The notes under the pieces are model-generated. The model was not told the DNA's origin. It ran no database searches and saw only the letters and a program-made list of their open reading frames with translations. Shown piece by piece: positions 1,596 to 60,600 of a stretch of DNA of 64,000 nt. The stretch covers positions 2,479,001 to 2,543,000 of the forward strand of contig JARUPZ010000027.1 in assembly GCA_031213475.1 (NCBI GenBank), written 5' to 3'. The DNA is from Nereocystis luetkeana. Its lineage: Eukaryota > Sar > Phaeophyceae > Laminariales > Laminariaceae. Position 1 is the stretch's first letter; the number at the start of each line of letters is the position of its first letter. The translations under genes were made by a program, and so were the position numbers.

Positions 1596-2890
1596 TTATC
1601 CCTTTATTAAAATCACTTGATTGTAAGAACCTGCCTCACGCTCAGCGAGTCTCCCACGTTTTTTTGTCGCTTCTACGATCTTTGCTTTCTTTGCGTGCTT
1701 GCTTCTCGTGCCACACTTTTTTTCCCGGAACAATAGAAAAAAAACTCGGAGAAAGAAAAAAGGCGATTTTGTTTTTTTAGCGGTTTGGCAGGCTGGCTCT
1801 CTTTCGCATTTTTTCACCGGCTGGTTGAATTTTCTTTTGCACTTTCAGTTCTTTTTTCCTTTTTTCTTCTTCCGTTTCGTGTGCGTGTGGATAAGTCGGA
1901 GCACGGCGACGCGAGCGAGCCCGGCGCCGTCGCGGGTGTCGATGGATGCTGGCGGGTAGAGGGGGGGTTGCAAGGAGCGCGGTCGCGGTTTCCGTGGCTA
2001 GGCGTCGTGTGTGCCTCGAGACACAAGGGAAGCATGAATGGGCTCTGCCTGGCCTCCATCTGAAAAATTAGACTGAGTATGTACGAGTGGATAAGGGTCG
2101 TTCGGGATTGCAAGCTAACATTCAAGCGGTGCTTATTTTTGCGACAACGCTGAACTATATATACACAGAGATGTACGTGTGACCACAGAACTTGCATCTC
2201 TTCTAGGATTGAAGAATCGGCACGGACACTGGTTGTGCTGGATGTCGACGGGTAGAAAGAACGGTTTAATGTGAAGAACCCACACACACACACGCCGTCT
2301 GACCACCGACATCGTCGAGCTGGCGAACGAGGGTCACGGTGAGCACCGGGCTTCACGCGGGGCAGGCGACGGGGATCACTGTGACAGAGAGGGGGGAAAG
2401 CTTTACCCGGACCGCATCGGCGGCGAGGTGGTCGCGAGAGAGGCGTGCGGCGTACGAGGCTGAGAGAAGCTCTACTGTTATTTATTTATTTTTCGTTGAT
2501 TTTTGACTGGTGCAAGGTGTTCCAGGGGCAGACAATTATTACATGAGGGGGACGGGATTTTTTTCTCTTTCCGAATTTTTCGGTTTTGTTTTCATTGTTT
2601 TTGCGGTGCTGCTGCTGTGACATGCTGTACTTTCTCGTTCGTACATACCAGGTACATACAACATCGAAATAAGAAAATCAGTACCCTACCTGGGGTATGT
2701 ACGTACGTACGTACGGCATGTGACTCTTGGCATTGTCAAGTCGCCAATTTGCGACTACGACATTCATAAATATATACCAGGTATGATTAATCATCGACCT
2801 TCTGTTCGCTTCGCGTATTTTTCCTTCCTGAGCGAGCGTAGCAGGGGGCGTAGGCCGCCCGCGGAGCGAGCGCCTTGTACTTTTCACGAA
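1596..2890 (+). mobile_element. Large dispersed repeat E2, copy a
   Basis: This region matches 30245-31265 over most of its length: the block beginning CTTGATTGTAAGAACCTGCC, the pyrimidine-rich part at 1690-1870, the block around 1900-2160, and the block at 2540-2880 ending in GAGCGAGCGTAGC and GGCCGCCCGCGGAGCG. Copy a holds two stretches missing from copy b: repeat E4 at about 2178-2296 and about 170 bp at 2350-2515. No frame is conserved between the copies. The GC-rich, palindromic right end (TAGGCCGCCCGCGGAGCG) is notable. Confidence 0.65.
2178..2296 (+). repeat. Repeat E4 copy a, inserted in E2
   Basis: About 115 bp beginning GTGACCACAGAACTTG and ending in an (AC)n tract is nearly identical to 3881-3998. 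The other E2 copy (30245-31265) lacks it at the corresponding place (near 30815), so it behaves as an insertion in this copy. The trailing (AC)n run may be a tail. No coding frame is conserved. Confidence 0.6.
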
Positions 2891-2980
2891 ATTCTATTCA
2901 AAATAAAATCAAATGCATTTTTTCCAATTCGAATATTATTTAAAAGGTTTTTCGGCCCTTAGTATGGGAACAACAACTAA

Positions 2981-3068: not shown

Positions 3069-3880
3069 AACAACCGAAAAGGAAAGGGCGTAACGCGACC
3101 AATGTCTGCTATTAATGGGATAAATACGTTTTCAGAGAGGAGCCTTCGCGATCGAAGTATTCCACCCAGCTTGCAAAGATGAGTTTCGACCAAAATCTTC
3201 GATCACACAGATGCCGTTCATTTTAATTTTTCACAGCTAGAGCCATCCCATACAAAAAGTCAATAGGTTAATCAATACCAGGTATTCGTGAAATTAAAAG
3301 ATTTTAACATGTTGCAAAGTCATAATACCCTCCCTTATCTGGGTTATATAGTATCAGTTCGCAGAATGATTATGTATATTGTCCTGTTGACCCGGGTAGC
3401 ATCCAGGGGAGCCACTGGCCTATATCCTTGACAAGGAAATACATACCAGGTATAGAATACGCGCGAACGGCTTATCATAAAATTTGGAAATTCAGTAAAA
3501 ATGGGATATAGACGATACATAGTATTTTTCCTTGTTACTTTCTCCTTGGTTCTTTGTCTTACTCTGTTCACAAGCAGTGGTGTTTTTGTTATTTCTTCTT
3601 TTTTCCAGCTCGTTCTTTTTCAAGTGTAGGCCACCTCGCCTGCGGGGGGGGGGGCACGCCAGATTGTTTCTCTTAGATTTTGCTTTCATTTTTCTTCTTT
3701 TTCTTTTTCGACTTGTCTACCTTGTTTTTGTTTTCTCTTTGATTGTTTCTTTTCGTTTCACTATTTCATAGATTGCGTATGTCGTGCCTGTCGTATCTAG
3801 TATGATGACATGGCTTTGCATTGCCCACTGCAGTTCACACTGCACACGTGGCAACGTAGTATCTCTGTGGCGTAGCTTTG
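3069..3880. other. Non-coding stretch, AT- and pyrimidine-rich
   Basis: No supported gene. TACCAGGTA copies lie at 3276-3284 and 3444-3452, and a T-rich tract fills 3535-3770. Confidence 0.4.
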
Positions 3881-3998: not shown

Positions 3999-4919
3999 GC
4001 AGCTTGCAAAGTTGAGTATCTGGTACCTGGTATCAACTATTTAGTCAAACTCACAGCTGACGATTCCTAGTTTTAATTGAAAAAAAACATGAAACGAAAA
4101 ACATCGAACCGAATTTGAGTGACCTCTACGTACGAGATGATAGAAATACACACACATAGTTGATACAATAAGAGTCTTAGGCTCTTGAGCCTTGAGCCAC
4201 ACGCTGCCCCCTCGGCAGGCAGGGCCCGTCTGGGCTGCAACATTATCATCAAATCAAACACCAGGTATCAAACAGATACCATTCCACAGGTAAATACCAC
4301 GTACGCACGGCGGTGTGGAACAGGCCTTGTTCGGTACCTGGTTCTGTACATACCGGGTGTAGCAGGGCGTACGCAGGCAAGCTGCCTTCGGGAGTTGCGT
4401 TTTCTCACATTTGTGTCGCAGCAACCAAGAGACACTTGCTCTACACAAATATGCTCGGGCCGGCATCGGCAGCAGCAGCAGCAAGCAGCCGCCGAGCCCA
4501 GTCACAGAGTACGAAAACGAAGAATCATAAATCCATGTAACAGCAGCTGTGGATACCAGGTCCCCTTCCCCTAGATACTGTACTCCCGCCTCATTTACAC
4601 ACAAGTTCAAGGTATCCAAGGTCTGTCATTCCGTTCCGTGCAGACCCGAGGCATCAACCCACCTCTCTGAGGGTGTGTGCTCCACAGCACTATTATTACA
4701 CCAAACAAGTACCAGGTACGTGCGTAGAAAAACCTGCCAGGGGCACCGCTCCATATTGGCGCGTCAACAGGACACACACAGCACCCAGTACTCCTGTACC
4801 GCGATACATACCAGGGTATACGAAATAATATGAAATGTCACCTACGACGGCATTGAATCTGTAAACCCAAGGGGTGGGTAGATGTACCGGTACCAGGTAT
4901 AATTATATGCGTTTCTTAC
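3999..4919. other. Non-coding stretch, likely 3' part or intron of the minus-strand gene at 4920-6768
   Basis: It holds TACCWGGTA at 4024, 4710 and 4891 plus near-matches. A minus-strand acceptor-like site near 4235 (ending TTGCAG) would join in phase to the exon ending at 4920 and give a short open stretch starting SPDGPCLP, but it stops after about 17 codons. I do not call it an exon. Confidence 0.35.
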
Positions 4920-6768
4920 CTTGCGCCGACCCCGAATATAGCTACGGGGATGTCCTCGCGAAGGCCCTCCACAAACTCTTCGCAGTCCAGTGGCCAATGC
5001 CGAGACTCGAACAACCCGCCTCCGCCGATAACAAACCCCTTGAAGCGGCTTACCTACCGTATGACGCAATACCATCATACAATAGCAGAATGGGGTGATT
5101 ATGTTGTAAAAATAGGAGCTGTACCAACCTGTATACCCCTTACTTCATACCAGGTACCTGGTACCAGGTACAACTTGGGTACAACACAACACAGCGCTAC
5201 TCGTCGTTCATACAGGATGATCTAATGATGTACTGCTCTGTGCTGTAGATGATTTAGTCCACGCAGAACAGAGGCACCAGCAAATCGTCGCAGCAGCAAG
5301 CTGACCAACGGGAAACTATTTTTTTATACCCCACAAGACACCGGACACCTGATCACGAGACACCGGATACGGGTTCGTAACTTCGTATGCTCCACTTGGT
5401 GATATACTTCCGTAAGTTACGAGTGTTCCAGTACGAAACATGGAGATGGGGCCGAAAATGTTTATGGGCCCATGGTCCTCTCAGGTTCTCGCAACTTGGG
5501 AACACGAGGAACCTGCTTGTTATATGTCGAATCTACGTGTATGTACCTGGTACCTGGTATCGGCTACAATATCATGCGTGACGTAGGTAGCGCCATCGAC
5601 GATAAATGCATGCATGCGGCCGCGGCAACCACTGTAGAAACTTCACGTGTTGGCGACAAAGAGACGAGAACCGAAGGACATACTGCTTGAATCCGAGACA
5701 CCGTACCCCGATCGATTCCTCACCTGTTCGCCACTCTTTCGATCGCAGCCGAGCCCTACCACCCCAGCTGAATTCTTCGCGAAGAACTCGCCTGGCGAAA
5801 AGCAATCGAAAAACGAAAACAACAGCAACAACAACAACAACAACAACAACAACAAAAGAGGTTGCAGAAAACCAAAACCATCACATACCAGGTATTTATT
5901 TTGCTTTGCCATGTTGGGAACATTTGCCGAAGACAGAGACTCTCACAGCCCAACGGACACGCAGGATCCTGCCCTCTACCCTCTGCCCTCTCTATCGTGT
6001 TGGCACATCCGCGGTGGTGGTGGTCGGGGTGCCAAGCAGGCTGGTCAGCGTTTAGAGGCTCCTAAAAGCTTCTCTGGGCGGGGCCATCTAGGAGCTCGCT
6101 AAATCGCCAAATATTTACAACAAACAAGTAATGGGAGGTGTTGTGCGTGCTACGAGTGAGTATACCTCGTGTTTTTTATCATCATACCTTCGTGAAAACC
6201 GTTTGCTAGGGCTTCCTTCGACGGGTGTGCGTGCCACACGCAGCTCGCTTCGGGGGAGACGCTGGAGACGAGTCTCGACAAGGTCGAGGCCTGGATGACG
6301 TCTCCCATGTTCCCGTTGCAATACGCTCCGAACAGCAGGATGCATTCGCTCACGTCTTCCTCCTGTCCAATGCCCTCGACCAGTAGAGAACGCTCGAGAT
6401 GATGATGAGCCGAAAAATCAGCCGAAATGTTGGACTCGACGATGCACGAACTGCAAAGCAAAAGGGAGATCGTGTCTACCCATCTCCGCGCCGAAAGCAT
6501 GAGAAACGGCGACCAGGCAGAGTAGGTCGGCGCTGAATGGCGCAGGGTGCTATAAGAGCGGGAAACCCTAGCGCTTGCTTACTCCGTGCTGTGGATGTCC
6601 CCCGTTGATGATTCGTGATTCGTGATTCGTGATACCACCAGTACGTGGTGATTTTCTGGTCGTTGACGAGAATGAAAACTTTGTTTCTGCTTCACAATTT
6701 CGCGAGGTGTGATGATGGCGTGGTCCGCTTTCCGCCCGCGTTTCTCCTTCCCTTTTTGTTTGCCAACG
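4920..6768 (-). CDS. Polysaccharide pyruvyl transferase family protein (partial, at least 3-4 exons)
   Basis: Enzymes of this family transfer pyruvate from phosphoenolpyruvate onto sugar hydroxyls as a ketal; relatives include CsaB-type proteins. I infer exons, in transcript order, at 6583-6768, 6188-6450, 5724-5791 and 4920-5038. The 6188-6450 exon encodes ILLFGAYCNGNMGDVIQ, matching the family's N-terminal Gly/Asn-rich motif. The 4920-5038 exon encodes GFVIGGGGLFES and then IPVAIFGVGA, the classic central motif. Acceptors are pyrimidine-rich (CTTTTGCTTTGCAG before 6450; GCTTTTCGCCAG before 5791; the one before 5038 is weak). Donors are GTAAGC, GTATGA, GTGAGG and GTAAGA. Reading phases (2, 1, 0) agree across all three introns, which is unlikely by chance. 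The Lys/Arg-rich 6583-6768 exon is the least certain. The start codon and the C-terminal half were not found, so the gene may extend left, be incomplete, or be a relic. Confidence 0.62.
5821..5853 (+). repeat. (CAA)n microsatellite
   Basis: About eleven CAA/CAG-type triplets in a row, inside the proposed intron between the exons at 5724-5791 and 6188-6450. Confidence 0.9.
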
Positions 6769-8346: not shown

Positions 8347-11300
8347 ATGACGACCGACGTTATTCCCGTCGCTCCCGAGGTCGAAATTTATGGCGGAGCG
8401 AGACTTGCCCACGACGGCTGGGTGTCAGAGTTCGAAGCCTTCAAGAGGTCGGAAACACAACAAGCTAATAATGGAGGAGTATTGCATTCCGTGCCAGCTT
8501 CCGCTCGCTCCGGACGTTCCGCAGCTGCACGCGGTGCCGCCACAACGCCTGATCCTGCCGGAGGCGATACGACGAAAGGCATGGACAACCTACGCGCGGA
8601 AATCAAACTTCTTCACTGGCACAAGCTAGCGAACGAGGCGGCTTTGAAGGCCGCCCTGCTGAAGACGAAGAAGATTAAAGCTCAGGGAGGGGGCACGACG
8701 AGGCCAGTCCCCGCCATGACGACGTTGTCCATGCCGACGGAAGAGAGGGCGGCTTGGATGCAGCAGGTGATTGAGGAGGAGCAGAGCAAGCCCCTGCAGG
8801 TGACGAAGGACTTCATGTCCAAGTACGAGGAGAAGGAGAAAGAGAACGAGGGGAGGTTGGACAACGAGGTAGCTGCGCACATTCGCAGCTTGAAGAATAT
8901 TCGGAAACAGGTATGACTGCATTGGGTACGAGCTGCAGTCAGTGCCACACGCTGTACCACTCACCCCGCTTGTACGAGCCTCTCGGCTCTCCAAAATATT
9001 GTGGCGCCTGCCTGTCGAAGCACAAACATACTCCTACGGGGTCGTTCAAGGTATACCAAACTACAGTACTTACGGATACGACTCGTATGATACCTGGTAT
9101 AGGTTGTAGCTGTGTGATGTCTATTCCGTCCGGCAATGTATCCTGTACGCACTTTCATCCGTGTCGCACATAATAACATGTATGTGTGTATTCAAACGTA
9201 TACCAGGTACCTGGTATGTACGTACGTACTCACCTTCTTTCATATTTCAGCCTCTCCCGTCCTCTCGTTGATGACGGTACGGGAGCAGAAGCTGTAAGCC
9301 AATTTATATGCTTTGTATGTACCAGGTGTGTATGTACGACGTATGTACGAGTATATATATATGCTTCTGTTGTATGATTTGTATGTACCTGGTACCTGGT
9401 ACCTGGTATGTATTTATGTACTGGTATATACCATGTATGTACCTGGTATGCATGTATGATACGATACCAACTATACAAGGCGCTTGTACGCATACATGCT
9501 CGACGTTGAAAAACGCAACAAGAAATAGGATGGGTGACATATTACTGCACAGAATACTTCTGATTTACACCATTCATACTAATATTAATATAACGGGGGA
9601 CCATAGTAGGTAGGACCTACTACGGTACACACAAAACCTATAGGTTTCCCTATTTTTACTGGCAATTTTTGGTCCTATTTACTATGGTCCCACGTAATAG
9701 TGTGAATTAACTTGGTGCGTCGTACGAATAGACCCTCTTAGATCACCGTGTTATATATGTATCTGAGTACGCGAGTACACGTTATACGTATGAGTGCGAT
9801 ATATCTGGCCCTGGATCCTATCGTGGATCGTGAACCTATTTTTTTTACCTGATGTTTGAAAGGACGATATGACCCGTCCGCCAATCAATAGAATCCTCCA
9901 GGAACCGCGCATTTGTTGCTACGGGAGAACGCAAAGTGTTCGTGTGTTCATAACGTAAACAACCCTTCAGACTCCAGACGACTGACATCAATTTCAACAA
10001 CAGGGGTGTCTCTTGTCGGACATCCTTATATCCAGCACTATAAAGTACCTGGTATGCCACTGCATACTAACAGGTGCCAGCTACGTCATACCCCATAGTC
10101 CCAGCATACCCAACGACACTCAGTGCTCGGTACGATATTCCGTACCTGGCGCATTGTACACAAACACAGAACAGTGACAGCAAGCGGAAGCGTCCTGCTG
10201 CCAGGTGATCACAGGAAATATGTCATTGATGGGAGGCCGCGGTTTAACCCCTAGACTGGCCGCCCCCTGCACTACATCAATAGTAAACTGAGTAAGGCCA
10301 AAAACGGCCTTGCCGCGACAACATAGCCCTGTTTCCTTCGCGCCAGCTTTGCATCTTAGTGATATATCGCCTCGTCGCGCGTGATGGCCAGTTTGTTTTT
10401 TACAAGCAACACTCATAGATGGCCACCGCAACGATTTTTGTAGTGTTGAATACTTGAACATTGTTTTGAGGTGTTGGTATCTCAGCCAAACCATACGAAA
10501 CCCGTAAAGATGCATCCGAACGAAGCGGGATTCCAAGAAAGTATCAACTTTAACTTGCGCTTGGTTTGACAGCTAGACGCATAGAGCTCCGAGGCCATGG
10601 TTGCGCCTTGTAACTACTGAAGATGCGCCGAAATGCACCGACAGCTGTGCTTCGTGGCACAGGTATCATACCGTCACCACCGAAGTCATCACGGGCGTTG
10701 TCGGTGTTATAGTTAACGAATCGCAGTCCAGAAAGCTAAAGTTTATATAAGGCGTACGGAGGAGGAAACAACACATAAGTTCAACGGGAAAGTTTCCGGG
10801 CACGCCACACGCTATCATGGTCGCACAGCCCACAGCTCCACCCCTACCTACTCATACTCACAACGACACCCGTCTTCCGGCCCAAGTCCCTGTCTATGCT
10901 CGCGAATAACCCTCCTTACACATAGTGATGCAGACCGGGGAGGTGTTTAACAGACGCTTTGGGTTGAGCGTGTTCGGTGAGTCCGATGCGGGGCTGTTTT
11001 CAACAAGCACGTGCTATCCTGCGTGGTAGCACAACAGAGTTGATGATCTGGTTTCGAAAGAGCACACGATGCTGCACCATGCTATCGTCAAGTTCGATGC
11101 CTCCTCTTCAATTTGAGAAAACATGATACTCCTAGACCTTGGCTCCTCTACATCGGAAATATAGCTCGCTCCCTCGACGTGCCTCAAGAAGAGCCTCAAA
11201 AAGAGCTTTATGCCTACCGCAAGTCAGGTGGGGACGAGCCCGCGAAACGATGGTGCTTGTGCCTGAGGCACTTTTTCCGTTTCGTTTTTGTTTTCTTAAC

Positions 11301-13261: not shown

Positions 13262-14745
13262 CGATTGCGTTGCAGGAAGAATAAGATGAGAGGCGAGAGA
13301 ATGAACATTTCTCTCCTATTCGCTGAGACCTAGTTTAGCCGACACTTTTCTTCCTCATTGCATGCAGCCTCATGCCTATAAGGTGCGTTGCATTGTGTGC
13401 CGGAACCTGCCATGATATTTCGCGATGTATATGGCCTTGGTGCGACCACAAGGCTGCGTGTTTTTTTTCGAGATGTTGGCCATAGATATTTTAAAGCGCA
13501 GGAGCATCGTGTGAAACGTGGAGACACAGTCAAGTAGGAGTCTACTCGCTCCCTTGGCAACCGCCGAGATCATGAAAGATCGTGAGAGAGTCGCACCAAA
13601 CGCCGTTGTAGGTCATCGCGAGACGTCGGATACGTGCCAGCGTTTGTCCTGGGGTTTGTCCTGGTATACACATGTAGACGTGACTCCATGGCCCAGCATA
13701 ACCCCGACACCATGGCGCAACGCAACTCTCATATCGAGGATATGCTGCTGTACCGATGTACTACTCTCTTGTGGGGGATTGGCGTGTCCGAATTTGCGAA
13801 GAAAACTAAACAGCAGAGTAGTGATAGGGACAATGATGACGTTCTCGCATTGGCTCCTTTTCCGTTTTTCGACAAACCTAGACCGTCATCACGAAACTCC
13901 TTTATTGGTACGGCGTTTCTAGTCGTCCACGTGGTAGGTCATAGATGAACGCTGGGTTTGATTGATGCCTGATGATGGAGCACGGGGCGAAAAAAGGAAT
14001 GGATGCGTTTGATAACGAAGCAGTACCGACGCAGGTAAATTTAGATTTCGACTTTGTTCTTCTTGTTCTCTCTCTGTCCACTATTTTGGATCTTGAAAGC
14101 GAATGTTTGATAGCGGGGGGTGGATCGACATCCCTCCATATCACACAAAAATACATGTTACACGCTTTGCACGTACGTACGTATGAGTCTACGATAGGGG
14201 TACTTCCTGTACAGGAAATTTATGTCTGGTACCTGGTGAATATGACTGCAGCTCACCGTCTCCACGAGGTGGTGAGAAGAAAAACCAGCCGGAAGTCTCG
14301 ACCGGGCCGGTCTGTTTTCGGCGTGGTGTGCGCTACGCTCTTTATAGCGAAAGGCACGGCTAATATCTGACGATTTTTTGCCCCAAGCACTTGTTCGTAT
14401 GAGGGGGGGGAGGGGGCGGTAGGACTTGGTGGCGCTGCTGCTGCCGTCGAGCACCGACCGACCGACTTTTGGTGGTGTTGCTCCCGCGCACGATCGGGAT
14501 TTCATGGCCCACATCATCACCCTCAATTCCTTTCTTCTAGAATACCATCTAGGAACCCATCTTGATCCTGCTGACATGTGGCGCACAAAAAAAAACAGGG
14601 CAGGATACATTATTCGTACGGTGCATAATACCTGGTACCGGTAGGGGTAAAAAACGTATCGCGCATTGTCTTTACTACTTAGCAAGATTAATAGTATAGG
14701 CACTGCTTTACCCACCTTACGGAGCCATCACCACAGCCGGGAGAT
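13262..14745. other. 3' flank and intergenic region; one weak exon candidate
   Basis: An ATG at 13975 opens a short frame (EHGAKKGMDAFDNEAVPTQ) that ends at a good donor, CAG|GTAAAT, near 14035. It could be a first exon on the plus strand, but no partner exon was recognised. TACCTGGTA lies at 14629. Confidence 0.3.
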
Positions 14746-16462: not shown

Positions 16463-16870
16463 GAGATACCAATCTGGGTGGAAATATAAGGACCGTTTAA
16501 AGGATACTATGAATACCAAGCGGTCCTTATATTTATGCCCAGAGTGGTATTAAATAGTGGGACTTCGGATACAGATATACCAATCCTGGCGGAAATATAA
16601 GGGCCGTTTGGGATTTACTATGAATACCAAGCGGTCCTTATATTCACGCCCAGAGTGGTATTCGGATACTCGTATAAAGATACCAATCCGGATGGGAATA
16701 CAAGGACCGTTTGAAAAAAGCTATGAATACTAAGCGGTCCTTTTATATTCAAGCCCAGAGTGGTATTCGGATACTCGTACAAATTTACCAATCCGGACGG
16801 GAATATAAGGACCGTTTGAACAATACCATGAACACCAAGCGGCCCTTATATTGACGCCCAGAGTGGTATT
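16463..16870. mobile_element. MITE family A, four copies in tandem
   Basis: Four units of about 102-113 bp start near 16464, 16577, 16679 and 16785. Each has a foldback structure: GGAATATAAGGACCGTTT on the left pairs with AAGCGGTCCTTATATT on the right, framed by GATACCAATCCGG and CCCAGAGTGGTATT. Units differ at several positions, so the array is not brand new. Dispersed single copies occur at 28455-28546, 29205-29280 (partial) and 53512-53592. Confidence 0.85.
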
Positions 16871-27235: not shown

Positions 27236-27636
27236 ACTCAACAAGAGTCTGTTTTTTTCTGTTATACTTTACATGCTTTGCGAGGCAGAGCGACTTGCTC
27301 CAAAGACAGTTGGCAAAGTTATTTTAACTACAACGTAAGTTCGAGCCCGAACTAAAGACGAAACACCCGGGACCCTGGAAAAAAATCGCGGATTTAGCAG
27401 TAGCAAATTGTGGGTTGCAGGTACTGCTGTGTCCAGTCCGCATCATACCAATAGTTTCACACCAACCAGTACAAAAGCAGTCGAACGCACCCGCTGAAGT
27501 AGAAAGGCGTCGTTAATCGTACACCAAAATATAAGTTCGCGCGATCGGACTGTCACACTTCTGTACCAGGTATGACATACAAGGTTGCAAACATGATTCT
27601 GACCAAATTCTCGATCACACAGCTCATGTGTTTGGA
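27236..27636. other. Non-coding stretch
   Basis: No gene; TACCAGGTA at 27564-27572. Confidence 0.4.
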
Positions 27637-29373: not shown

Positions 29374-29559
29374 TTAATTTAGATGCAGAGTGGGATACAA
29401 TATATGCCCCAGTATACCAGGAAGGTCATACATCTTCGCTCAAGTCCATCCACCCACCCGAGAAAAAGCACGAGCATGTTATACTTGGACGTTCGATCCG
29501 TCCCTCGGGTCTGAACGTAACATCGTACCTGGTATCAGTTTCTACCGCACAGACTCAGC

Positions 29560-34700: not shown

Positions 34701-34874
34701 GAAATAGAGTTACGATGGAATGTCAAGTCAGAAGGCATCGCTTGAACCCTGTTGTACCTGGTATAATTACCGCTGCACACAGACGAACGCCGATCCCTCC
34801 GCCGCGAAAGCTCTCCCCGAGGGGTCTGCAGGCATCAACGAAACACGCGCCATGGAACCCCAACACCTCCTCAC
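31791..34874. other. Long stretch without a supported gene
   Basis: It contains an exact tandem duplication (33154-33253), TACCWGGTA at 34088, 34431, 34651, 34658 and 34755, and an AGTACTGGCAGTATAC local palindrome cluster at 33570-33610. No exon was recognised. Confidence 0.35.
33154..33253 (+). repeat. Exact 50-bp tandem duplication
   Basis: The 50-bp unit starting GGTGATTGAGCTGTGTGTGG is present twice with no visible difference, so it is recent. Confidence 0.9.
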
Positions 34875-48759: not shown

Positions 48760-49864
48760 CCAGACGTGCTACGTATATAGCAGCAGTAGTAGTAGTAGCC
48801 TTTCACCAAAAATGCCAAACTGCTGTGATACACTACCTGGTATTTGATACTGCTCTATACTACTGAAATACTGTTGTATTAAGATTAATACAACTACATG
48901 CGTATATGCTCGTACTACTATACACCACTACTACAACAGTGCTATAAGTGTACTATTAATATTAATATTAATAATACTCCCCACTACTACTGTTGTATCA
49001 CTGCAACCACTACATTACTACTACTGTAAGTACTACTTTTACTACTATTAATAGTAGTACTACTAGACTACTAATTGTATTAGAAAAATCCAATACTTCG
49101 GAGTATATCTTAAATGTTAATAAAGCAGATATTAATTTTGAAAAATACATTGGATTTACAAAGTCGTTTTGTTTCTCAATCAGCTAGGTTTTCAAGATCT
49201 ATCTATAGATTGCCAGAATTTAACAGGGATTGGAGCAATTCTACCTGTTGCTTTTTTTACTGTACTCCCCTCTAGATTTTCTCGCCCATCAGCTGTATCT
49301 GCTGTATTTAGTACTACTATTACAGAACCACTTGTTAAGTGCAAGGCAGTCTGGACCTAGGGATCGACTATACTGCTAGCAGGTTGATGCCGTTGGCTCT
49401 GCTCTGGTCACTCACACGAGGTGCTTGACGATGTTATGAGTTGTAAGCTCTTGTAGTAGTTGATGCTTGCCTCGCCAGATATGTCTTCAGAACGAAGGGG
49501 CGAGGCGCTCATCAGAAAGGCAGGCGATAACGCCTGCCAAGTATGGTGAGGGGACGAGATTGTTACAAACCATAATGCCGCAACAGGGGAGAGGGGATAC
49601 CATAACACTATAATAGCCCACCCTTAAGGGCCGTATATGCAGATTCATAGAAAACTCAGGCACGAACCGTACCAATCCGGAGAATCCGGAGAATGGATCG
49701 AAGATGCTGTACCCCAAAACCCACTCCCACACCTCTAACTTGAAAGGCAATCGCCGATTTCACGTGGACACTACACACTGCAGTACTACTACAGAGCTAC
49801 CGTACTACTACAACGATATACAGTACTATACAGCAGTAGTACACTACTACTACTACTACTACTA

Positions 49865-49904
<40 letters not shown>

Positions 49905-49953
49905 GCAGTAACTACTACTATACTACTATACTACTACTACTATACTACTACTA

Positions 49954-49991
<38 letters not shown>

Positions 49992-49992
49992 A

Positions 49993-50051
<59 letters not shown>

Positions 50052-50240
50052 TACTACTACTACTATATACTACTATACTACTATACTATACTACTATACT
50101 ACTATACTATACTACTATATACCAGGTATATACTTCGAAGTATACTACTTCTCCTCCTCCTCCTACTACTTCTCCTCCTCCTCCTACATTTACTATTAAT
50201 ACTACTGTAACAGCAAGTACTATATACTACTACTTCGATA
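48760..50240 (+). repeat. (TAC)n / (ACT)n-rich microsatellite region
   Basis: Dense ACTACT triplet repeats occur, purest at 49842-50110, with (CTC)n patches at 50150-50185. In between, 49060-49360 is more complex but carries no recognisable gene. Long poly-Tyr, poly-Leu or poly-Thr frames here are artefacts of the repeat. TACCAGGTA (50120) and TACTTCGAAGTA (50131) sit side by side at its edge. Confidence 0.85.
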
Positions 50241-51301
50241 ATAAATAGCTCTACTAAATAAACTGATGTACCATGTGTTACTGGTGCTGATACATTTTTA
50301 CCATTAATTATATGTACTGCTGCTGTAGTGCAGAATACACATATTGCTTTACACACTCGTCAGTACACTTAATCCGAACCCCGGAGAGGTTCTCGAAGGG
50401 GGGGAGTATTTTTGTCTCCTTGCTGTTGTACGTACTCGTACACACATGCGCGTGTGTATGTTTTGCCCATACCTGGTATGTATATAATATTATGTACATA
50501 CCAGGTACCAGGTATCGTTTACCAGGTACATATTATTATTTCTCTTGTACGACGTCTCGTTTACATTGTACTCGAGGGGCTATGGAGTACTATATATACA
50601 CCCAAGGGGGAGTATATGCATCTCTTCTGCTGTACCCCCTGTCCGCGTCGTCGGACAAACTGCTGCTGAGTCCCAGGTGGTTGTACCGTACTACACTGAG
50701 TCGCACCAGGTAGTAGTACTACTGCTGCTGTTTGTTTAAAGTATCGTATATACTCGTATACTCACGGCTCGTTGCATATCTTACAACTACTACTTGTATA
50801 ACAACGAAGTATTTTCCATCCAACCTGCTCTGTACCAACCTGTTACAGCGTAGTGTCAGTTATGAAAAGGAAGCGTATACCATCAGCCGATGGTCTACGG
50901 TCCTGTTTCCTGGTGTGTGTTTGCTGCTGCTGCTGCTGTTACGAAATGATAGCCCTCGTGTAACGTCGTACTGCTGTTGTATGAATATCGGTATCGGTGT
51001 ATCGGTATCGGATCCATGTGTATGAAGATACGGCAAGTCGTCGTAGTCGGCAGTCGGTAAATCAACATTTTTCTTCATGAAAAACGGCAGTTACATTTTG
51101 CTGATGCCAAACCCCCCCTTTCCCCTTCCCGTGTACGCTATACGTAGCTTTCCTTTTTCGTTTGTGTGGGGGCTGCTGCTTTTTACTGCTTCCCACACCG
51201 CTGCCGTTGCACTCGCCCGAGAGACCACCCAACCACGCAGCGCCGGACCCTCGCGCTGTGCTGATAGAGTCCTAGTCCTTTTCATCGGGAGCGACAGCAC
51301 G
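50241..51301. other. Region upstream of the HMG-box gene
   Basis: TACCWGGTA copies at 50470, 50499, 50506 and 50520. From about 51100 the sequence becomes GC-richer, as expected of a promoter or 5' leader. The leader of the HMG gene should end at 51301. Confidence 0.45.
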
Positions 51302-54300
51302 ATGGCGAAGGTCGGTGCATAACTTCGCTACATAAATAGTGCGCGCCACGCAGTACAAAGCTCACGGAGTACGAGGGGAGGAGGGAGGGCTAGGTAGTTG
51401 TAGCGGCTTGTTGCGACAAGTGTTTAGGGCAGATGACCGACACTACCGCTTGCGACGCGCGCGCGTCGTAACCCTAGCTTCGCCAAGCTTGCTCCGTCTT
51501 AGCGTGGATCCGGCGGGGAGTACTCGTTGTCGGCGGATCCGTTGTTTGGCCCTCTTGTGCCTGCTCTCTTTGGCACCTTTTGAGCTCTTTTCTGCCTCGA
51601 GCCCGATGCTCAAACGCTTCATTCCGGCCAACTTTTTGCATCGCCTAAACGCGGGTGTCCGTTCATGAATCCCACTCCCTCGCCCTCTTCGCCTCGTCCC
51701 ATCCCCCGTGTGTCCTATGCGGATGGTTTCTGTGGCTTCCGGTGCTCCAGCCTGCCGTGAGCAAAAAGGTGAGTCCAGCCGTTATGTAATTCGATTTTTC
51801 GATTTTTCGTAGTTTTTCTGCCTGCACGAAACACCACGACCATGTACCAGAAAATTGAAAAAAGTAAGATAAGCCCAGGGCTCGAGTCAAGTACCCTTCG
51901 GCGCGATCCTTCGATGTGGGTGCGCGCGCTGCAACAACGCCACTACTCCCCAACACCCCCACCTCAGCCCCTCCTGGATCTTCGCTTGTGTCTCTGCCCA
52001 CCTCAATCCTCGCGGAGGTGGCCCAGCGCGGGCCGAATGGCGTATTCCCTCGTGTTCTGTTTCGCCGAAGTTCCGTCCGCAGAGCGCGAAGCACCACCAT
52101 CTGTCTATTGTGTTATTCATAGCCTTTGTGCACCACGCGCGCACAACACCCGTTCGTTCCCTGTTCTTGTCTTTTTTTTCTGCTTCCTGTTTGCCAACCC
52201 TCGGCTTTCGAAACGGCGGAACAGCAGTCATCCAAGAGTTCGAAGAGTGCCGCCAAGGCTCCCGTGAAGGCCAAGCGGGCGAAGCGTGCCAAGAAGGACC
52301 CCAACAAGCCGAAGGGCGCCATGTCTGCCTTCATGCAGTTTTCGCAAAAGGAGCGACCCAAGGTGGGTCTTTTTGTCTTTCTCCTCCTGTGCTCTTGCAG
52401 TGCATTTTTGTGCTGGTTGGTCTGTGATGTGTGCAGAAAGAAACGAAGCAGAAAAACTCGATAAAATCAAAATCAAATCAAATCAAATCCCTTGGTCTCT
52501 CCTCTCCCCCTTCCCATACTGCAAAGTCTATATATTTTTGTTCTCGGGCGTTGTTTTTTATTTATTTATTTTTTTGATTGGTTTGTCTCGGTTTTTGTGT
52601 GGGACGTGTGATTGAATTACACCCACCGAATTTATACGATCACCCCATCACACGATCACACATGCAGCGGCCTGCTGACACACAAGCGATTTGTCCACGC
52701 ACATAGACACGCACAGCACCTGGATTTCCCATGATATACCTGGTATGCAATAATGTCAAACGTGATGTCATGGCTGGGCGATATGTATGATACCACAGCA
52801 ATTATTATTCAAAATTGACGTGGTCTTACGTAGCGACTATTTAAGATTGATTCTACTTACCGGTATAGACTTTCCTGCTGCTTATACTCTTCCTACTGCT
52901 GCTGTATTTGTGTTCGTTGATAGTATCGTGAATCGTGAGTGGCGTTTTGTTTACGCTTGGAAACTCTGCCCCAGACTCCGGAGCCAACTACATGCCTGAG
53001 GCGCTTGCCCATATATCGCGTCACGGCTTCTGGTAAATACTACCAGTAGATGTACAGCGGTACACCGCGTACCACTGAACGAAAACATCATCCACTTTCG
53101 AATTTCAATGTACTTCCATGTCAGCATGAAACGGGGAATATACTTTCGCCCGTTCCGGGAGCTATGAGTAGCTGGAGTGGTGTGTAATCGGCTTATCTCC
53201 ATCAATCATTGGCTTTGCTTTCATTGGTTGCCAGACGAGGCTGCTGTAGCCTATGGTACAGAGGTACGACTTTTTTTTCGTATTTTCGGTTCTCGTGCAT
53301 ACTGCATGCATAGAGCTGCAGATACTGCATACCTATACATAGAGCTGCAGCAATGTGACACCGATTACGTCCTTTGATTTGATCAAGGTCTTTCTTCCCT
53401 CTCATAGAAGGATGGTCGCCTTTTAGAACCGCGGTCCCGTTTTGGGTAAAAGCTACTTGAAAATTGAGTGGTTTGTCCCCAAAACGGGACTGCGGTTCTA
53501 AAAGGGGTGAGCACTCTGTCCCGATTTATGAAAACCGTTTGGATTAAGTAGTGATAAACCAACGGTCCGATATATTGGGATAGAGTGGTATTACCCCTTT
53601 TGAACTGCAGTCCCGTTTTGAGGACAATCCACTCAAATTGTAAGTAGTTTGTCCCCAAAACGGGACTGCAGTCCTGCAAGGGTTAATATCAATTTAGATT
53701 ATCATCAATATCAATATTAATATTACGGGGGACCATAGTAAATAGGACTAAGTATTGTGAGTAAAAATAGGTCAATATATAGTTTTTTGTGTATACCATA
53801 GGTCCTACCAGGTATTAACTATGGTCCCTCGTAATAGTAGAGTTTGATGTACCGACGGGAGATTTCATGTGTGTGGATGCTCAGTCCAGTAGACAGTTCA
53901 GCTATGTATTCGTATTGTTTGTATGACCAATACATGCCATGAAGCCAATCCACAATATCACGCGTTATTAATGCATGCCATGAAGCCAATCCACAATATC
54001 ACGCGTTATTAATGGGCTACAAGTATACCATAGGAGTCAACAGCAGCATCAATACGGCCGGTGCATGTAGACCACTCGTACAAGCAGGTATCACACAGCG
54101 GCACAGGCAGTAGTGGTCCCTCTATAGTACCGGCTGCCGTCTATAGTGCGTGTGAAATCGCTTGGCACAGATGGGATTTTAAACCAGTGTGCGAAAAGTG
54201 CTGGTTGCCGGTATTGTTGGATCAGTGCATGCCGACACTTGAAAAGATGGGGGGACCCTACAGTGCTGCTCACAAGGACTACGTGGTTCGGGAGTAGTGC

Positions 54301-57300
54301 TGGCTGGTGCTGGGTGGCGATAGTGTTGGCTGGTGCAGGGACCACGACTCGACCGCTTTTCGTACCTGTTTTTCGGTCGGTGCCGGTTTTTTTTTGCGCT
54401 TTCGTGACGTTGATCATGCCACCCTACCACTGCTGTGTGCTGCAGCTCTATTAACTATAAATACGCGATGAGTCGGTGAGGCAATCTATAATCTAAAACC
54501 CCCTCTGTAGTTACCTGGGTCGGCCTAATGTTCCGGCATGTTTTTTTTTGTTTTTTGCGCCCCTCTGGGTCCTGTGAACCTTTCTGTGGCCTCTAATCCT
54601 CGCCGTGATATATTTGACTTGGACGTGTATCCCTGTTGTGGTGTACCTGGTACCTAGTTTTTTGTACGAGCCCTTTTTCTGATCATTTACCTATTAATAG
54701 TTATGATAATTAGCGTAGCTTCGCTTATACATGTAAAACAATGGATGTAGGAGAGGTTCAGATGCGTGGTCGGGTAAATGAACACAATAGAACTTTCGTC
54801 AAAGAGAGCTATTGACATAATAGCTTTAATAGAAAAGCTATGTAACGTAATCTAATTTTCGAATTTGAACATAGCGATTGCTTCAAGGGATCCTGGTCAG
54901 TGCAGCGCCGACGACATGCAGTCTTGAAACATTCAATTGGATTACGTCAGGTCTCTTTCACAAAAAATGTTGCATGTACTTTGTGTTCGTTTTCCCGACC
55001 ACGCACCCGAACCTCTCCCCTCTCTGTTGTTTTACATTTTCGAGCGAATGCTGTTGATCATAAACACCGTACTCTTACGTGGGGGGGGCATAGTAAATAG
55101 GACCAAATATTGTTAATACAAATAGGTAAGTATAGAGGTTTTTCTGCGTACGATAGGTCCTATTTACTATGGCTCCCCGTAATATTTAATAGTAACAATT
55201 CATCTATCATTACTAGGGTTCTGAGTGCGCTGGACTTGCCGGCTATTGATAGTACAGTAGTTATTATAATTAGTTGGCTAGCGAAGCTGGCCAACTAGTT
55301 GACTCTAGTTGACTACCAGGTCAGTGGGTTTAATGCGCCGTGAGTTGCAGTAGACCTCTTTCTGAGCAAGTGGTCTCAAGGAGAATTCGTACCTCGTACT
55401 AAATAAACGTTTCCATCAACACGGAAACCCAAATGGTCGGAGAGTGGGCCGCCGCAACTACGAAGCACCTGGTCACCTAAATACCTACAACGTGTGATAG
55501 CTGGCGACGTTCAGTCATCCAACTCACAGCTATATTTTGTACGACATAGTGATTCTAGTTCATTATTTCGATGGCGCCCAAAAAGAGACCTTGTGCACGA
55601 GTTGCCTGTAGCCAACGTACGCCATCCAGCAACGCACACAACCTGACGACAGTTGTAAAAAGATCCTGCTGCGGGAGTTCTTTTTAATATTAATACGTCA
55701 TAGCGGCAGGCTTTCCTCCACCTGGTCATTCATGATAAAATATTACCATGGTAAATCGTAACCACTGGGATTATTACAGCTATCATACCTGGTACATACT
55801 GCAGAGTAGGCAGGTATACGAGTATATATACCTTCGGTGTATGGATGTATCATCTGTACGTCAACATTTATTAAATTTTCCAGATCTAGCAGTAGCTTTT
55901 GTACCTGGTAGTGCTGTAGATCACTTTTTAGAAGTTGGAAGAATCTGGCAGGAGACGCTGCAGGAGATGTCTACGTACGTACCCACAAGATGCACGTATT
56001 TATACAAGTATTATCACGTACCAGGTAGGCATGAAGGATTGGTCTTGGAATCCTTTGTCGGTACCACAGCAATTTTTTTAAATACAGTCACTCACTATCG
56101 CAACATCCATGTGGACGTATGCAATGATCGGGAAGAAAATACCTCGATATTCTTATACTTCGAAGTATATGGAATGAGACGCCGGTCTGACAAATGTAAT
56201 AACGCATTGAACAGGTGAAGGAAGAGCACCCGGACATGAAGATCACTGAGATCAGCAAGGTGTTGGGTTTGCGATGGGGAAAGATGGACGACGCCCAAAA
56301 AAAGCCGCACCAGAAGAGGGCCGACGCGGACAAGGAGAGGTATGTTGCTTGCCATCGGTTGCGCTCGTAACCTTGGAAACCCATCCCGATCTGACCGTAG
56401 GTAGGTGTCCGATTTTTTGCACCCATGAATTTAATCGACACCCTGATGCCACGCAAGCTCATGGCCTGATCCACCATAGTCGAGGGTTTCCATCAAGCGG
56501 CCACAGCGAAACAGGAAAAACACCGAAACCGCATCTGATTAGTTTAGTCGTTTGAAGCCGGTGGCGTGTATGGTCAACCTCGCACACTCTCTTGTCAATA
56601 GAGTTGAGGTGAGGGGTCCGAGTCTCCGAATGGAGATTTGTGTTATCAAATATGACACCAACTGTCGAGAGCGCCTGTTGCAGCGGACGTCGGTAGTTAC
56701 CACTCGTCGTCAACGAGGGAAGGAAGCGCTAAACTCATCTCGCGATAAAAACGCGGGGCACGTACGCACTGTAGAGGGGAGGAGGGAGAAGAAAGCGCCT
56801 ACCATGGTACTATGGATCTGAACGCCTTCGTCTGATGGATCTGAGCTACGAGTTATTAGGGTCATTCTTATCCGAGAGCTTTTTCCCCTCCATTTTTTTT
56901 CTCGCGCATTTTTTTCATCTTCCAGATTTTCCTGTTCTTTCCTAAATATGTAAAATATCATGTTTCTGACTTTTTTGCTTGCTGATAAAATTCACACATT
57001 GTGACAGAACGCCTCCGTACCTTGATACCTGGTACATACGTCCAATTATTCCTCACCGGAGAAATTCTGGAACAAAGCTCTCTTGATAAGAATGGGCCTT
57101 CGTATTGTAGGCTGTAGGAGGGAGAGAAGAAAATGCGCGAAGATAATGATTGGGAGGGGGCGGGGGGAGAAAGGAGACCACGTGGGCGCCCCGAAAAACT
57201 TTCAAAATCACATCAGCGTGTGCTTATCACACACGGTCGATGGATGGGCGCTGTTTGCCACTGCTCCGTATTACCACTGTATTGTGGCGCACCTGTTGCG

Positions 57301-57693
57301 TATAAACATTGCCTTGACGCAGAAATGTACAAGAACGTTCCAATATACACTGGCTGGGTTCAAATTTATAATTTTAGCCAGCTCGACGCAACCCCAATTT
57401 TCAATTTTTAAAACTTTAGTCGGATACCAGGTACACATGTTTTTGCATTGTGGGAATGTGCAGCGACGTCGATATCACACAAACACCCTAAGCTTTTGTC
57501 CTGTACATCCCGCTTGTTGCATCAACGTCGATGGCTGACAACACTCTCATTTGATGTATTGTATGCACTGCTTTATCACCTATTGGTAAATAGGTACAAG
57601 AAGGACATGGTGGCGTACAACGCTAAGAAGGCTGCCGAGGAGGAGGATGAAGATGACGACGAGGATGAAGAGGAGGATGAGGACAGCGACTAA
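51302..57693 (+). CDS. HMG-box chromatin protein (HMGB/NHP6 type), four exons
   Basis: HMGB/NHP6 proteins bend DNA and assist nucleosome remodelling and transcription in the nucleus. Exons are 51302-51310 (ATGGCGAAG only), 52225-52362, 56215-56339 and 57594-57693. Phases 0, 0 and 2 agree throughout, and the product is about 123 residues. Exon 2 encodes a Lys/Ala/Ser-rich leader and KKDPNKPKGAMSAFMQFSQK, the start of the HMG box. Exon 3 gives EEHPDMKITEISKVLGLRWG. Exon 4 gives YKKDMVAYNAKKAAEEED and an acidic tail of Asp/Glu. The HMG box covers about residues 32-99. The second intron (3852 bp) holds MITEs of three families. The acceptor of exon 2 reads ACAGCAG, a tandem NAGNAG site that could add or drop one Gln. 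The tiny first exon is inferred from phase and start context; exons 2-4 are near certain. Confidence 0.88.
53419..53508. mobile_element. piggyBac-like MITE family C, copy in HMG intron
   Basis: CCTTTTAGAACCGCGGTCCCG faces CGGGACTGCGGTTCTAAAAGG. Flanking TTAA is no longer recognisable, so it is older than the copy at 29285-29373. Confidence 0.75.
53512..53592. mobile_element. MITE family A, diverged copy
   Basis: CACTCTGTCCCGATTTATGA and AACGGTCCGATATATTGGGA with ATAGAGTGGTATT at the right end resemble family A. It sits between two family C copies. Confidence 0.6.
53595..53682. mobile_element. piggyBac-like MITE family C, second copy in HMG intron
   Basis: It begins CCCTTTTGAACTGCAG, ends CTGCAGTCCTGCAAGGG and is followed by TTAA (53683-53686). 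The left flank is TTAC, one base from TTAA. Confidence 0.82.
53726..53831. mobile_element. MITE family B, copy 3, carrying a TACCAGGTA insertion
   Basis: The ends CGGGGGACCATAGTAAATAG and CTATGGTCCCTCG match family B. Its right arm reads GGTCC-TACCAGGTA-TTAACTATGG, where copies 1, 2 and 4 read GGTCC-TA-TTTACTATGG. The motif is therefore an insertion at TA (53806-53814). Confidence 0.88.
53933..54013 (+). repeat. Exact 41-bp tandem duplication
   Basis: The unit starting CATGCCATGAAGCCAATCC is present twice in a row inside the HMG intron. Confidence 0.9.
55078..55179. mobile_element. MITE family B, copy 4
   Basis: Left CATAGTAAATAGGACC and right GGTCCTATTTACTATGG arms are perfect inverted repeats. 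The outermost left bases are altered to a longer G run. Confidence 0.85.
55269..55527 (-). mobile_element. Dispersed repeat E3, copy c
   Basis: It begins AGTTGGCTAGCGAAGCTGGC, contains TTAATGCGCCGTGAGTTGCAG and AGACCTCTTTC, and ends GCGACGTTCAGTCATCCAACTC. It lies in intron 2 of the HMG gene. Confidence 0.65.
56560..57175 (+). mobile_element. tRNA-derived SINE, older copy, interrupted
   Basis: The head (TGGTCAACCTCGCACAC, then GGGTCCGAGTCTCC) and body (TCTCGCGATAAAAACG, GGATCTGAGCTACGAGTT) match the SINE at 27637-27990 at low identity. The last matching block, GCGCGAAGATAATGATTGGG, appears only at 57150, so about 250 bp has been inserted between 56856 and 57105. It overlaps intron 3 of the HMG gene. 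Confidence 0.6.
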
Positions 57694-60600
57694 AACACAA
57701 GACGTGTTGCTGGCAAAAAACCCTTTTCCCCCTCATTAATCTTCACGCTCGAGAGGTGTGCCATGCGGTTGCTCGCTCCCTGCCCTGCTTCGTTCCGCTC
57801 ACTGACCTTGCATCTCATCGTGCAAGACTTGCAGCAACGGCATTGTTCTTCATCGCTTTCCAGGCGACACAATGTCGATTTATATCGCGTGAACTCGCAG
57901 TATGAACCGAGAACCAATGGAATTAGGGGGGTGGAGGTCCTTCCATGACTACGACGAGTAGGGTTGGTTTTCCACCGCAATGGAGGAGGCGAAGGGGGGG
58001 GGGGGGTTATCGAGTACGAACGTAGCGTGTTTTTGAGTCCCGTAGGTCGGGTTTTAGCTGTTGTTGCCGCTGTTGTGGCTCGAGAGCGTTTCGATTTATC
58101 AGGCGTAGGATGGTGAGAAAGAAGGCGCAAGCGAGTTGGTGGCTGTCGCCGAATGGGCTGCTTGCAGGGCTCATGTACATTATATGCCCGAGAGTATGTT
58201 GCCTATTCGTGCGTCATGGGGGTCTGAAAGGTGAAGTGATTGGGTCGGAGAATGGAAGGGGAACGTGCGAAGGGCAAGCAAGCGGCCAAGCCAGACGGAG
58301 GAAGAGTAGATCACGTGTCTTGGTAGAAAAAAAGTTTACCAAATTGGAAAAATAAAACAAGAGTTTACCAATTGGAAACAGCGGGCTCCTGTTATCTCCC
58401 TTTCTCTGTGCCTTGTGGTAGTACGCGGTGTGTTTTTTTTCTGAAAATAGTTTTAGAGTGTTGAGGGGCTTCTACGACCGGATGGAGTGTAGTGTAGGGA
58501 GGCGTGTCTGACCAGGGCAGCCCCGTTGTGAATATCGTGCGCGAGCTTTTGTCGCGGACAGCTCTCGGTACGAAATCCGCCCGGCACTCAATTCGATTCG
58601 TGGTACCGAAGCGATCATGGGTCTGTCGTTGTTTATCCCCCTCCCTCTGATTTCTTTAAGACTCGGATCATTACGACAGCGGCCTGTACGATACTATGCA
58701 TTTTATTGGTGAAAAAAAGAAAGACAGCAGTACACCATGAGGACGACCTATTTACTGGGCATTCATTCGTCAGCAGCAGCAGGAGCAGTAGTACACGGTA
58801 TAGCAGTACTGTACGAGTACACCAGTGCAGGTATAGCAGTGCGGCCGTGATAAAATATGGCTGTTACCGCCAGTCCGCGATTTTTCAACGCACGTGTCTG
58901 TGGCACTGCTGTCTGTTGCTGGTTTGTTCTTCGGAACTTGTCGCCACCGCCGGGGCTGACGATCCTGCGATGTTCTTGACATTATATCTGATAATCTTTT
59001 TTACATGATCTTCGGTGATGGATCTTGAAATGTCTGTTTTTATCTATGCTGCGCTTGCTGACGGTGATTTGGTTCATGTCATGGTTTTCTTGGATGCTTA
59101 TTATCTCCAGCCGACCGTCTCCACTCTTCACGCCGTTTGTCGGTTTTTATTCGAGCGCGCATATACAGCCGAAACATTATTGGTCCCATCGGTACTCCTA
59201 CTATTACCAGGTACATTATAAATTACTCGCGCGTACCATAGTTGATTGATTGACGACTGGAAGCACTTTTGCGTTTATCGTTATAGTGCGGCAGCGCTTT
59301 ATTGTAATCGATGTGTCGAGCATTGATCGAGTCTGTTGAGTACAAGCGCATGTGTTTGGTTTCGTGTCGTACGAAGCTTTTTTATACAGAACAATAGCGG
59401 GAAAGCGCTTACAACGCACCGCCAAGCCAGTGTGCATTCGATGGATACACACAACAAATCGTCTGTCGTGCGGTTAGCTTGTAGGAGTACATGACATATA
59501 GCAGGTAATTCGCGCATAGTAAGTCGTTTAGCATGCTGGCCTCTTTGCTCATAAATACCTATGATACCTACACAAGGTTGCGATTGGCGTGAATCGCTTA
59601 CTTTTAGTCTGCATGGTAGGACAAAAACTGGCTGATCATCCATGAGCTGTCTGTTTTGTAGTACATAAATCATACCGACGGTACTTTTATGTAAATATTC
59701 GATTGCAAAACGTCAGTTCTACATATTAGGTAAAAGGAAAAAGGACCGAATAACTACAGCGCATTGGACATTTCGGGGCTACCTGATCCGGTGCAGGACC
59801 AAACACCACTTGCGCTGTACTACTGTACCAGGTACTACTTTTTTATACTCGTACATGACTTAAACGACCTGATGTTTTGGCGAAATCTGAAAATGGGTCT
59901 TCACAAACTCCGCCGCAGCATATTATGACTTCTGCGGGATGGTGGTATATAGCCCACCATCATACCGTTTCCTTACGTATACTACCGCAGGTATTTTGTA
60001 CCACATACCATACCTGGTACCTGGTAGGTTTTTGGTATTTGTGGTGCTTGCTTTTCTCTGGGCTTTCCACGGTCGGTTCTGAACCGCACCGCGGTCCGCG
60101 GTATGGTTCTGGAGCATTGCGCATTCCTACTTATGTTACATGCGGGTACAACTCCGGTTCGGATCTCGTCGTTTCGAAGTCCAACGGTTCGGTCCGTGCC
60201 CCGGAAAACCCATTTTTTTGTTCCGCGACGGTACCGATGAACCGAACCGAATCGCAGTAAAAACGCACACATGCACGCTTGCTTCGCGTGTTGTTGGTGT
60301 CTACCACACACAGTATCAGGTATTATCATTACCAGCATAAAAAACCTGGGGATGTACCCCGGGATGTCCCCTGACGACCATATATATATATGTCGCCAGA
60401 AATCGGGCCTTTCTTCGGTGTGAGAGTCAACATGACATCAGCACTTCCGTCGGTCGCGAATGAAACACATACAATCTTCTAGTGGTGCTGTGCTCACTGA
60501 CTATCGCCGTGTAATTTATGTAGTTTGTGTTTTCTTCTTCCTAAAATAGTGGTTGTACGGTACGTAAGAGTGTGATCGATATTCAAGCTGTGTGGACTTT

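Follow-up and report, generated by a model that had tools for sequence, protein, structure and literature searches.

The word TACCWGGTA, which occurs 54 times in a 64,000-nucleotide stretch of the genome of the kelp Nereocystis luetkeana (the window; G000:C27:2479001-2543000, from an assembly totalling 465,085,209 bases, 465 Mb), marks a 7-bp insertion made up of CCWGG and a duplicated TA, relative to homologous sequences that have a single TA. Each TACCWGGTA is probably a scar, by which we mean the footprint remaining after excision of a DNA transposon of the cut-and-paste type with TA as its insertion target.

The first exact match in the window starts at position 2646 and the last one ends at position 60026. 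Dinucleotide shuffling of the window gave a mean expectation of 0.45 copies (maximum 3), and none of 100 shuffles reached 54. Genome-wide, the word is present at 182,395 places, versus 1,744 for a reversed-pattern control, an excess of about 105-fold. The original prediction had claimed 54 copies against about 0.5 expected, an excess of about 100-fold, for a dispersed, TA-bounded word, and both the window and the genome counts bear this out. Its expectation of a rank at or near the top also agrees with the counts: TACCWGGTA is third among strand-folded window 9-mers, after ACTACTACT and a C run, and, among the 256 odd palindromes that follow the pattern xxxxAyyyy, it ranks first in a 200-kb genome sample made up of 20 stretches, one of 10 kb (bases 500001-510000) from each of contigs C1 to C20, where it was found 60 times. 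The window is enriched over the genome rate (54 versus 25.1 expected, P 4e-7), with about twice the average density. Across 28 pieces, scar density tracks the supply of purine-TA-pyrimidine sites (Spearman 0.47, p 0.012).

TACCAGGTA and TACCTGGTA are mutually reverse-complementary, that is, a single word in two orientations, and TACCWGGTA is self-complementary except at its centre. On the + strand, the central base of the 54 window sites is A in 29 and T in 25; a G:C centre occurs once in the window, and the one-mismatch neighbour words occur there 0-4 times each. The W in TACCWGGTA is orientation, not degeneracy, and a degenerate motif was rejected on these grounds. The window sites fall into 44 clusters, 36 of them single, 6 double and 2 triple. 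When the window and the 20 stretches were taken together, 90 of 101 insertion points were single and 11 carried two or three scars sharing their TAs. Neighbouring scars within these stacks have equal centres in 7 pairs and opposite centres in 6, a mixture that simple slippage would not produce.

Comparison of the window with itself shows exact 7-bp presence/absence differences at a TA, both between 2775 and about 31157 and between 53806 and several repeat copies. A model empty site was then built for each scar by joining its two flanks, and was searched for in 315,559 bp of non-redundant sequence. This set comprises the window, the 20 stretches and merged C1 loci, the latter chosen because they contain TACCWGGTA, and holds 145 scars in 130 clusters. 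Seventeen clusters were dropped as low complexity and 113 were tested, along with 980 of 1,083 other TA-N5-TA sites as controls. A gap-free homologue was obtained for 20 of the 113 scar clusters (12 empty, with a single TA, 8 filled and none both) and for 153 of the 980 controls (13 empty and 146 filled, 6 of them both). Empty homologues are hence in excess at scars versus controls (Fisher p 2.3e-7 to 3.4e-7). Clean empty/filled pairs include window sites 3276, 2775, 53806 and 57026; at 3276, TAATCAA-TA-CCAGGTA-TTCG aligns with TGATCAA-TA-TTTG of locus L075. As the empty homologues keep one TA, the word corresponds to a 7-bp insertion with a duplicated target TA. A double scar of opposite centres is missing from a copy 97.9% identical. 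Site 3444 has the A form and its L075 relative, of 92.7% identity, the T form, a difference that may reflect either one centre change or two events. With respect to the controls, five of the 13 sites with an empty homologue are TACTCGATA or its reverse complement TATCGAGTA, possibly a second scar type or one repeat family.

For the analysis of target preference, the 7 bp were removed from the 101 insertion points, and both half-sites were pooled and compared with a background of 14,944 TAs from the same sequence. The insertion points have a common symmetric flank pattern within about 7 bp either side of the TA: W at -7 (p 2e-18), A at -6 (4e-10), A at -3 and R at -1 (2e-10; T is rare). The signal is weak at -8 (p 0.03) and absent from -9 to -14. 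A left purine and a right pyrimidine are jointly present at 65 of the 101 points. This two-fold pattern centred on TA is such as a dimeric TA-targeting transposase would leave, and a palindromic AT-rich target preference is reported for ZB and SB (PMC7913693). The outer TAs of the scar itself match the preferred purine-TA-pyrimidine context, which would account for the stacking of scars.

Variants of the word were also counted. One-mismatch neighbours number 87 in the 200-kb sample and 26 in the window; 11 other half-words of identical composition have on average 28.6 and 7.2, respectively. Genome-wide, there are 367,383 matches with up to one mismatch versus 66,255 for the control; when exact counts are subtracted, about 120,000 decayed one-mismatch copies stand above the control. 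These copies imply that scars have been forming for long enough for many of them to mutate, and point to a long-running process. One C1 repeat copy has TACCAGGTACCGGTA where its relatives have TACCAGGTA, and TACCAGGGTA (n=10) and TACCTGATA (n=13) show the target pattern (z 4.5 each); we read these two words as putative mutated scars. TACCGGTA mildly exceeds expectation in the window (6 versus about 1) and was rejected as a second excision product, its 22 sites being without the target pattern. A single CCA overhang would be expected to leave TACCATA; the window shows no excess of this word (7 versus 6-9.5), its pattern score is modest, and it may make a small contribution as an excision product. 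A single product strongly dominates.

We know of only one ordinary process that adds a duplicated TA together with a few fixed bases: a cut-and-paste element that targets TA is inserted and later excised. A dimeric TA-targeting transposase would insert the element, duplicating the TA, and later excision would leave the tips of both element ends as single-stranded overhangs, which host end-joining would pair and seal as CCWGG, healing the break nearly always in the same way. CCWGG could result either from tips starting with CCA, with 3-nt overhangs and a one-base overlap, or from CCAGG/CCTGG tips, with 5-nt overhangs in which four of five positions would pair round one A:A or T:T mismatch. We infer, and favour, the longer, mostly self-complementary overhang, both because it would explain the single product and by analogy with Sleeping Beauty. 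The A/T centre of the Sleeping Beauty footprint comes from an A:A mismatch. That element leaves C(A/T)G plus TA, its 3-nt 3′-overhangs being joined by non-homologous end joining (NHEJ; PMC3878927, PMC7827188). The best reading of the putative donor is that it works like Tc1/mariner/pogo elements, which is not to say that it is one of them.

Several observations weigh against an excision footprint. The remnant, of 5 bp (CCWGG), is above the 2-4 bp usual for Tc1/mariner (PMC7913693), a range that is usual rather than mechanistically required. Under a stricter complexity filter, the empty-site comparison is reduced to 3 empty and 3 filled clusters among 46 tested, with 4 empty and 39 filled among 420 controls, a result with the same direction and little power. 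The 20 informative clusters include copies of the same repeats and hence are not independent events, the 8 filled ones representing about four families, in one of which the relative carries a one-base-different word. Nor is the scar alone in showing the target pattern: AT-rich words such as TATATATATA exceed the background, as expected from AT-rich flanks, and TACCATA (74 sites, z 3.2) and TACGTA (z 3.3) do so more weakly. The 315,559 bp yielded no donor with matching ends; scars there heavily outnumber visible donors, which is odd for a transposon family. PF13358 (DDE_3) has no match in the assembly, and the one DDE_1 locus that was read, L091, has no TA-flanked inverted repeats at the threshold used.

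As for the donor itself, no family with the predicted tips was seen among the 25 largest groups of 1,308 distinct TACCW starts (grouped by their next bases), among TA-flanked inverted repeats up to 700 bp, or among 33,379 TACC pairs, each lying in one piece with a spacing of at most 20 kb. The TACC-ended pairs found start with TACCGTAG, TACCGATT or TACCCACG, without the predicted tips, or else are TACCATAGG/TACCACGGG-type words internal to a common TTACGGGG repeat, or belong to an old 83-bp array at 16467. No TA-CCA inverted-repeat family other than this array, of four tandem repeats at about 105 bp (16458-16870), was seen in the window; the element of the array starts with CCA at both ends, but no copy was seen at any scar. 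A lone diverged relative lies at about 28460-28545. Split alignments hinting at a resident donor were obtained for three scars, the third with a 2.6-kb gap; two of them (L071; C1 near 89,980) were rejected as being without TA-CCW ends. A 258-bp pair with CCAT ends in L081 is a single case which, we estimate, chance could give.

The assembly does contain pogo-like DDE_1 transposase sequence (28 matches), none of it linked to scars. At five places (C2:7920664, C809, C872, C1099 and C1378), the DDE_1 score is identical and three TAG codons lie in frame; these are either a multi-copy degenerate transposase or duplicated contigs. L091 also includes, at 3259-3328, a 70-bp palindrome (TTATATAGCACTACCTGC...) which is 83% identical to its own reverse complement, with perfect outer arms, and a part copy of it at 3527-3552. 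Neither the triple word nor either of two window repeats had a match in scans of viral contigs, and Rfam (gathering thresholds) and ARAGORN gave no hits; Pfam on 10 open reading frames (ORFs) of the fetched loci gave RVT_1, NADAR and NMD3 only.

The large surplus of scars over visible donors is compatible with a hit-and-run element, with direct 7-bp insertion and with element elimination alike. A TA system with an approximately 5-nt near-self-complementary overhang, a single scar and scars outnumbering resident elements by tens to one, through hit-and-run or ongoing elimination, is possible, if on balance doubtful. Direct insertion of the 7 bp with no resident element, for instance where a transposase or recombinase cuts TA and its strand transfer aborts, with transposon tips serving in the repair, would fit the lack of donors, the single dominant product and the double scar facing an empty copy of 97.9% identity. 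However, ordinary insertion and excision predict the same signature, we know of no system that works by direct insertion, and we hold this explanation to be unlikely. Taking into account its fixed sequence, its odd palindrome and its absence from the supported exons described below, the word could instead be a selected protein-binding or methylation site with a CCWGG core, spread by function. The empty-site pairs disfavour this as its origin, since the word arises when 7 bp are inserted and TA is duplicated; moreover, its flanks bear the pattern of an insertion target and its copies decay, the one-mismatch neighbours being well above control, and selection appears very unlikely as the cause.

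Still less credit is given to a programmed, ciliate-like DNA elimination, by which elements present in another nuclear or life-cycle stage would be removed from the sequenced one and leave a scar apiece. It would suit the TA boundaries, the very large numbers, the dominance of one product and the scarcity of visible donors, but scars show decay, as ordinary inherited ones would. The least probable explanation is a heptamer microsatellite, (TACCWGG)n, expanding through slippage in the manner of the heptamer arrays found in some bacteria. Arrays of 2-3 units do make up 8 of the 44 window clusters, and mixed centres alone do not exclude slippage, as 5 of 40 TACCWGG arrays from bacterial metagenome-assembled genomes (MAGs; stretches L001-L040) mix A and T centres. 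A plain microsatellite was nevertheless rejected: most window clusters are single units, slippage-grown arrays not being the rule, and single units have empty, one-TA homologues. Microsatellites are thus an insufficient explanation, as had been anticipated. Many of the bacterial arrays have degenerate units (e.g., TACTTGG), unlike the window scars, and they were rejected as the same phenomenon. Such tandem arrays recur within several MAGs, among them Acidimicrobiia bin10049 and a Chitinophaga MAG, with frequent degenerate neighbours.

With regard to coding DNA, protein similarity supports four exons, all on the + strand and covering 4,257 bp. Those at 35695-36669 and 37248-38498 belong to an RRP12-like ribosome-biogenesis gene, the alignment of the latter overshooting the stop at 38492 by a few bases; those at 8347-8913 and 11615-13078 belong to a second conserved brown-algal gene, with no Pfam match for either of its exon ORFs. 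Identity of one conserved exon is 81% to Laminaria digitata and 56% to Ectocarpus, and the best matches of one RRP12 exon are of 96 and 90%. Pfam was run on 20 of 32 long window ORFs and gave two matches, both RRP12. None of the 54 scars lies in the supported exons, and nine are located in the two inferred introns (8914-11614; 36670-37247). Because the exons hold few TAs (79 of the 3,595 in the window, hence about 1.2 scars expected), this absence is not significant. The claim that the word is confined to non-coding DNA stands as regards these four exons, whereas the depletion in coding sequence that went with it, beyond TA supply, is not shown. As the scar is 7 bp long, any copy in coding sequence would shift the frame. 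The window sites are listed in Table 1.

Table 1. Scars and related features of the window.
Feature	Position	Strand	Evidence or remark
Scar TACCAGGTA	2646..2654	.	Exact match; diverged copy at 31016 also filled
Scar TACCAGGTA	2775..2783	.	Paralogous copy empty, single TA at 31157-31158
Scar TACCAGGTA	3276..3284	.	Empty homologue L075 8201-8083, 90.8% identity
Scar TACCAGGTA	3444..3452	.	L075 homologous site carries TACCTGGTA, centre reversed
Scar TACCTGGTA	4024..4032	.	Exact match
Scar TACCAGGTA	4710..4718	.	Exact match
Scar TACCAGGTA	4891..4899	.	Exact match
Triple scar, shared TAs, A-T-A	5148..5170	.	Exact match and cluster analysis
Double scar T-T	5544..5559	.	Exact match and cluster analysis
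Scar TACCAGGTA	5886..5894	.	Exact match
Scar, inferred intron 8914-11614	9091..9099	.	Exact match and exon similarity
Double scar A-T, inferred intron 8914-11614	9201..9216	.	Exact match
Triple scar T-T-T, inferred intron 8914-11614	9386..9408	.	Exact match
Scar, inferred intron 8914-11614	9440..9448	.	Exact match
Scar, inferred intron 8914-11614	10046..10054	.	Exact match
Scar TACCTGGTA	14629..14637	.	Exact match
Tandem array of ~83-bp TA-flanked elements, ends CCAATC/CCACTC	16467..16868	.	Weak candidate donor relative
Scar TACCAGGTA	19690..19698	.	Exact match
Scar TACCAGGTA	20645..20653	.	Exact match
Scar TACCAGGTA	27564..27572	.	Exact match
Scar TACCTGGTA	29526..29534	.	Exact match
Scar TACCAGGTA	31016..31024	.	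Exact match; homologous to 2646
Empty target TA	31157..31158	.	Homologous to scar 2775
Scar TACCTGGTA	34088..34096	.	Exact match
Scar TACCAGGTA	34431..34439	.	Exact match
Double scar A-A	34651..34666	.	Exact match and cluster analysis
Scar TACCTGGTA	34755..34763	.	Exact match
Scar, inferred RRP12 intron 36670-37247	37052..37060	.	Exact match and exon similarity
Scar TACCTGGTA	44663..44671	.	Exact match
Double scar A-A	45449..45464	.	Exact match and cluster analysis
Scar TACCTGGTA	48834..48842	.	Exact match
Scar TACCAGGTA, adjoins CTA microsatellite	50120..50128	.	Exact match
Scar TACCTGGTA	50470..50478	.	Exact match
Double scar A-A	50499..50514	.	Exact match and cluster analysis
Scar TACCAGGTA	50520..50528	.	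Exact match
Scar TACCTGGTA	52737..52745	.	Exact match
Scar TACCAGGTA in short inverted-repeat element	53806..53814	.	11 gap-free element copies with TA only
Scar TACCTGGTA	54644..54652	.	Exact match
Scar TACCTGGTA	55786..55794	.	Exact match
Scar TACCTGGTA	55902..55910	.	Exact match
Scar TACCAGGTA	56019..56027	.	Exact match
Scar TACCTGGTA	57026..57034	.	Empty homologues in L075 and L077, 75-77% identity
Scar TACCAGGTA	57425..57433	.	Exact match
Scar TACCAGGTA	59205..59213	.	Exact match
Scar TACCAGGTA	59826..59834	.	Exact match
Double scar T-T	60011..60026	.	Exact match and cluster analysis

Two repeats of the window that adjoin or contain scars were also recorded. The CTA microsatellite is long (49843-50117), and a palindrome, TACTTCGAAGTA, is found around 50131 and 44899, with 4 window copies. 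The short inverted-repeat element, with ends TTACGGGGGACCATAGT, is abundant: it is present at 53719-53848, 55059-55191, 44486-44597 and 9571-9701 and, among others, in L074, L077 and L088, with many copies in the 315 kb, some of them inverted or nested.

If the scars are excision footprints, counting the word amounts to counting the occasions, hundreds of thousands of them (the exact copies plus the one-mismatch ones), on which a transposon has left its site; from sequence alone, both transposase activity and the fidelity of end joining could then be dated and mapped in a brown alga. The scar would also predict the tips of the unseen element. Motif searches in such genomes could yield it as a false regulatory site. 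No description of a TACCWGGTA scar was found among the open-licence PMC papers listed, as judged by title and start of abstract. When the word and two longer forms were searched as strings, none of the open-licence PMC matches listed was, by title, on algal genomes, and no open-licence PMC paper was found for brown alga, transposon and excision footprint combined.

Among known systems, Paramecium-type elimination of internal eliminated sequences has TA boundaries and genome-wide numbers; the kelp scars resemble it in both, but no second genome or retained elements were seen. The genome of another brown alga, Ectocarpus, is rich in Tc1/mariner elements, with 17 Mariner-Tc1 families and almost 12,000 copies, mostly non-autonomous; the main text of that paper has no word beginning with "footprint" or "excision" (PMC12477816). 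Plant Stowaway miniature inverted-repeat transposable elements and mariner elements offer a further likeness, as non-autonomous elements with short excision remnants (PMC4561436). Excision of rice DNA transposons has mixed outcomes, with deletions or filler, and 8 of 94 left the target duplication alone (PMC4423477), whereas one exact product dominates in the kelp. The kelp remnant, CC(A/T)GG, is two bases longer than that of Sleeping Beauty and Frog Prince, is present in hundreds of thousands of copies, and its donor was not found in 315 kb; with their C(A/T)GTA footprint it shares the TA duplication, the odd near-palindrome with an A/T centre and, on the reading favoured here, tips joined by NHEJ (PMC3878927, PMC7827188).

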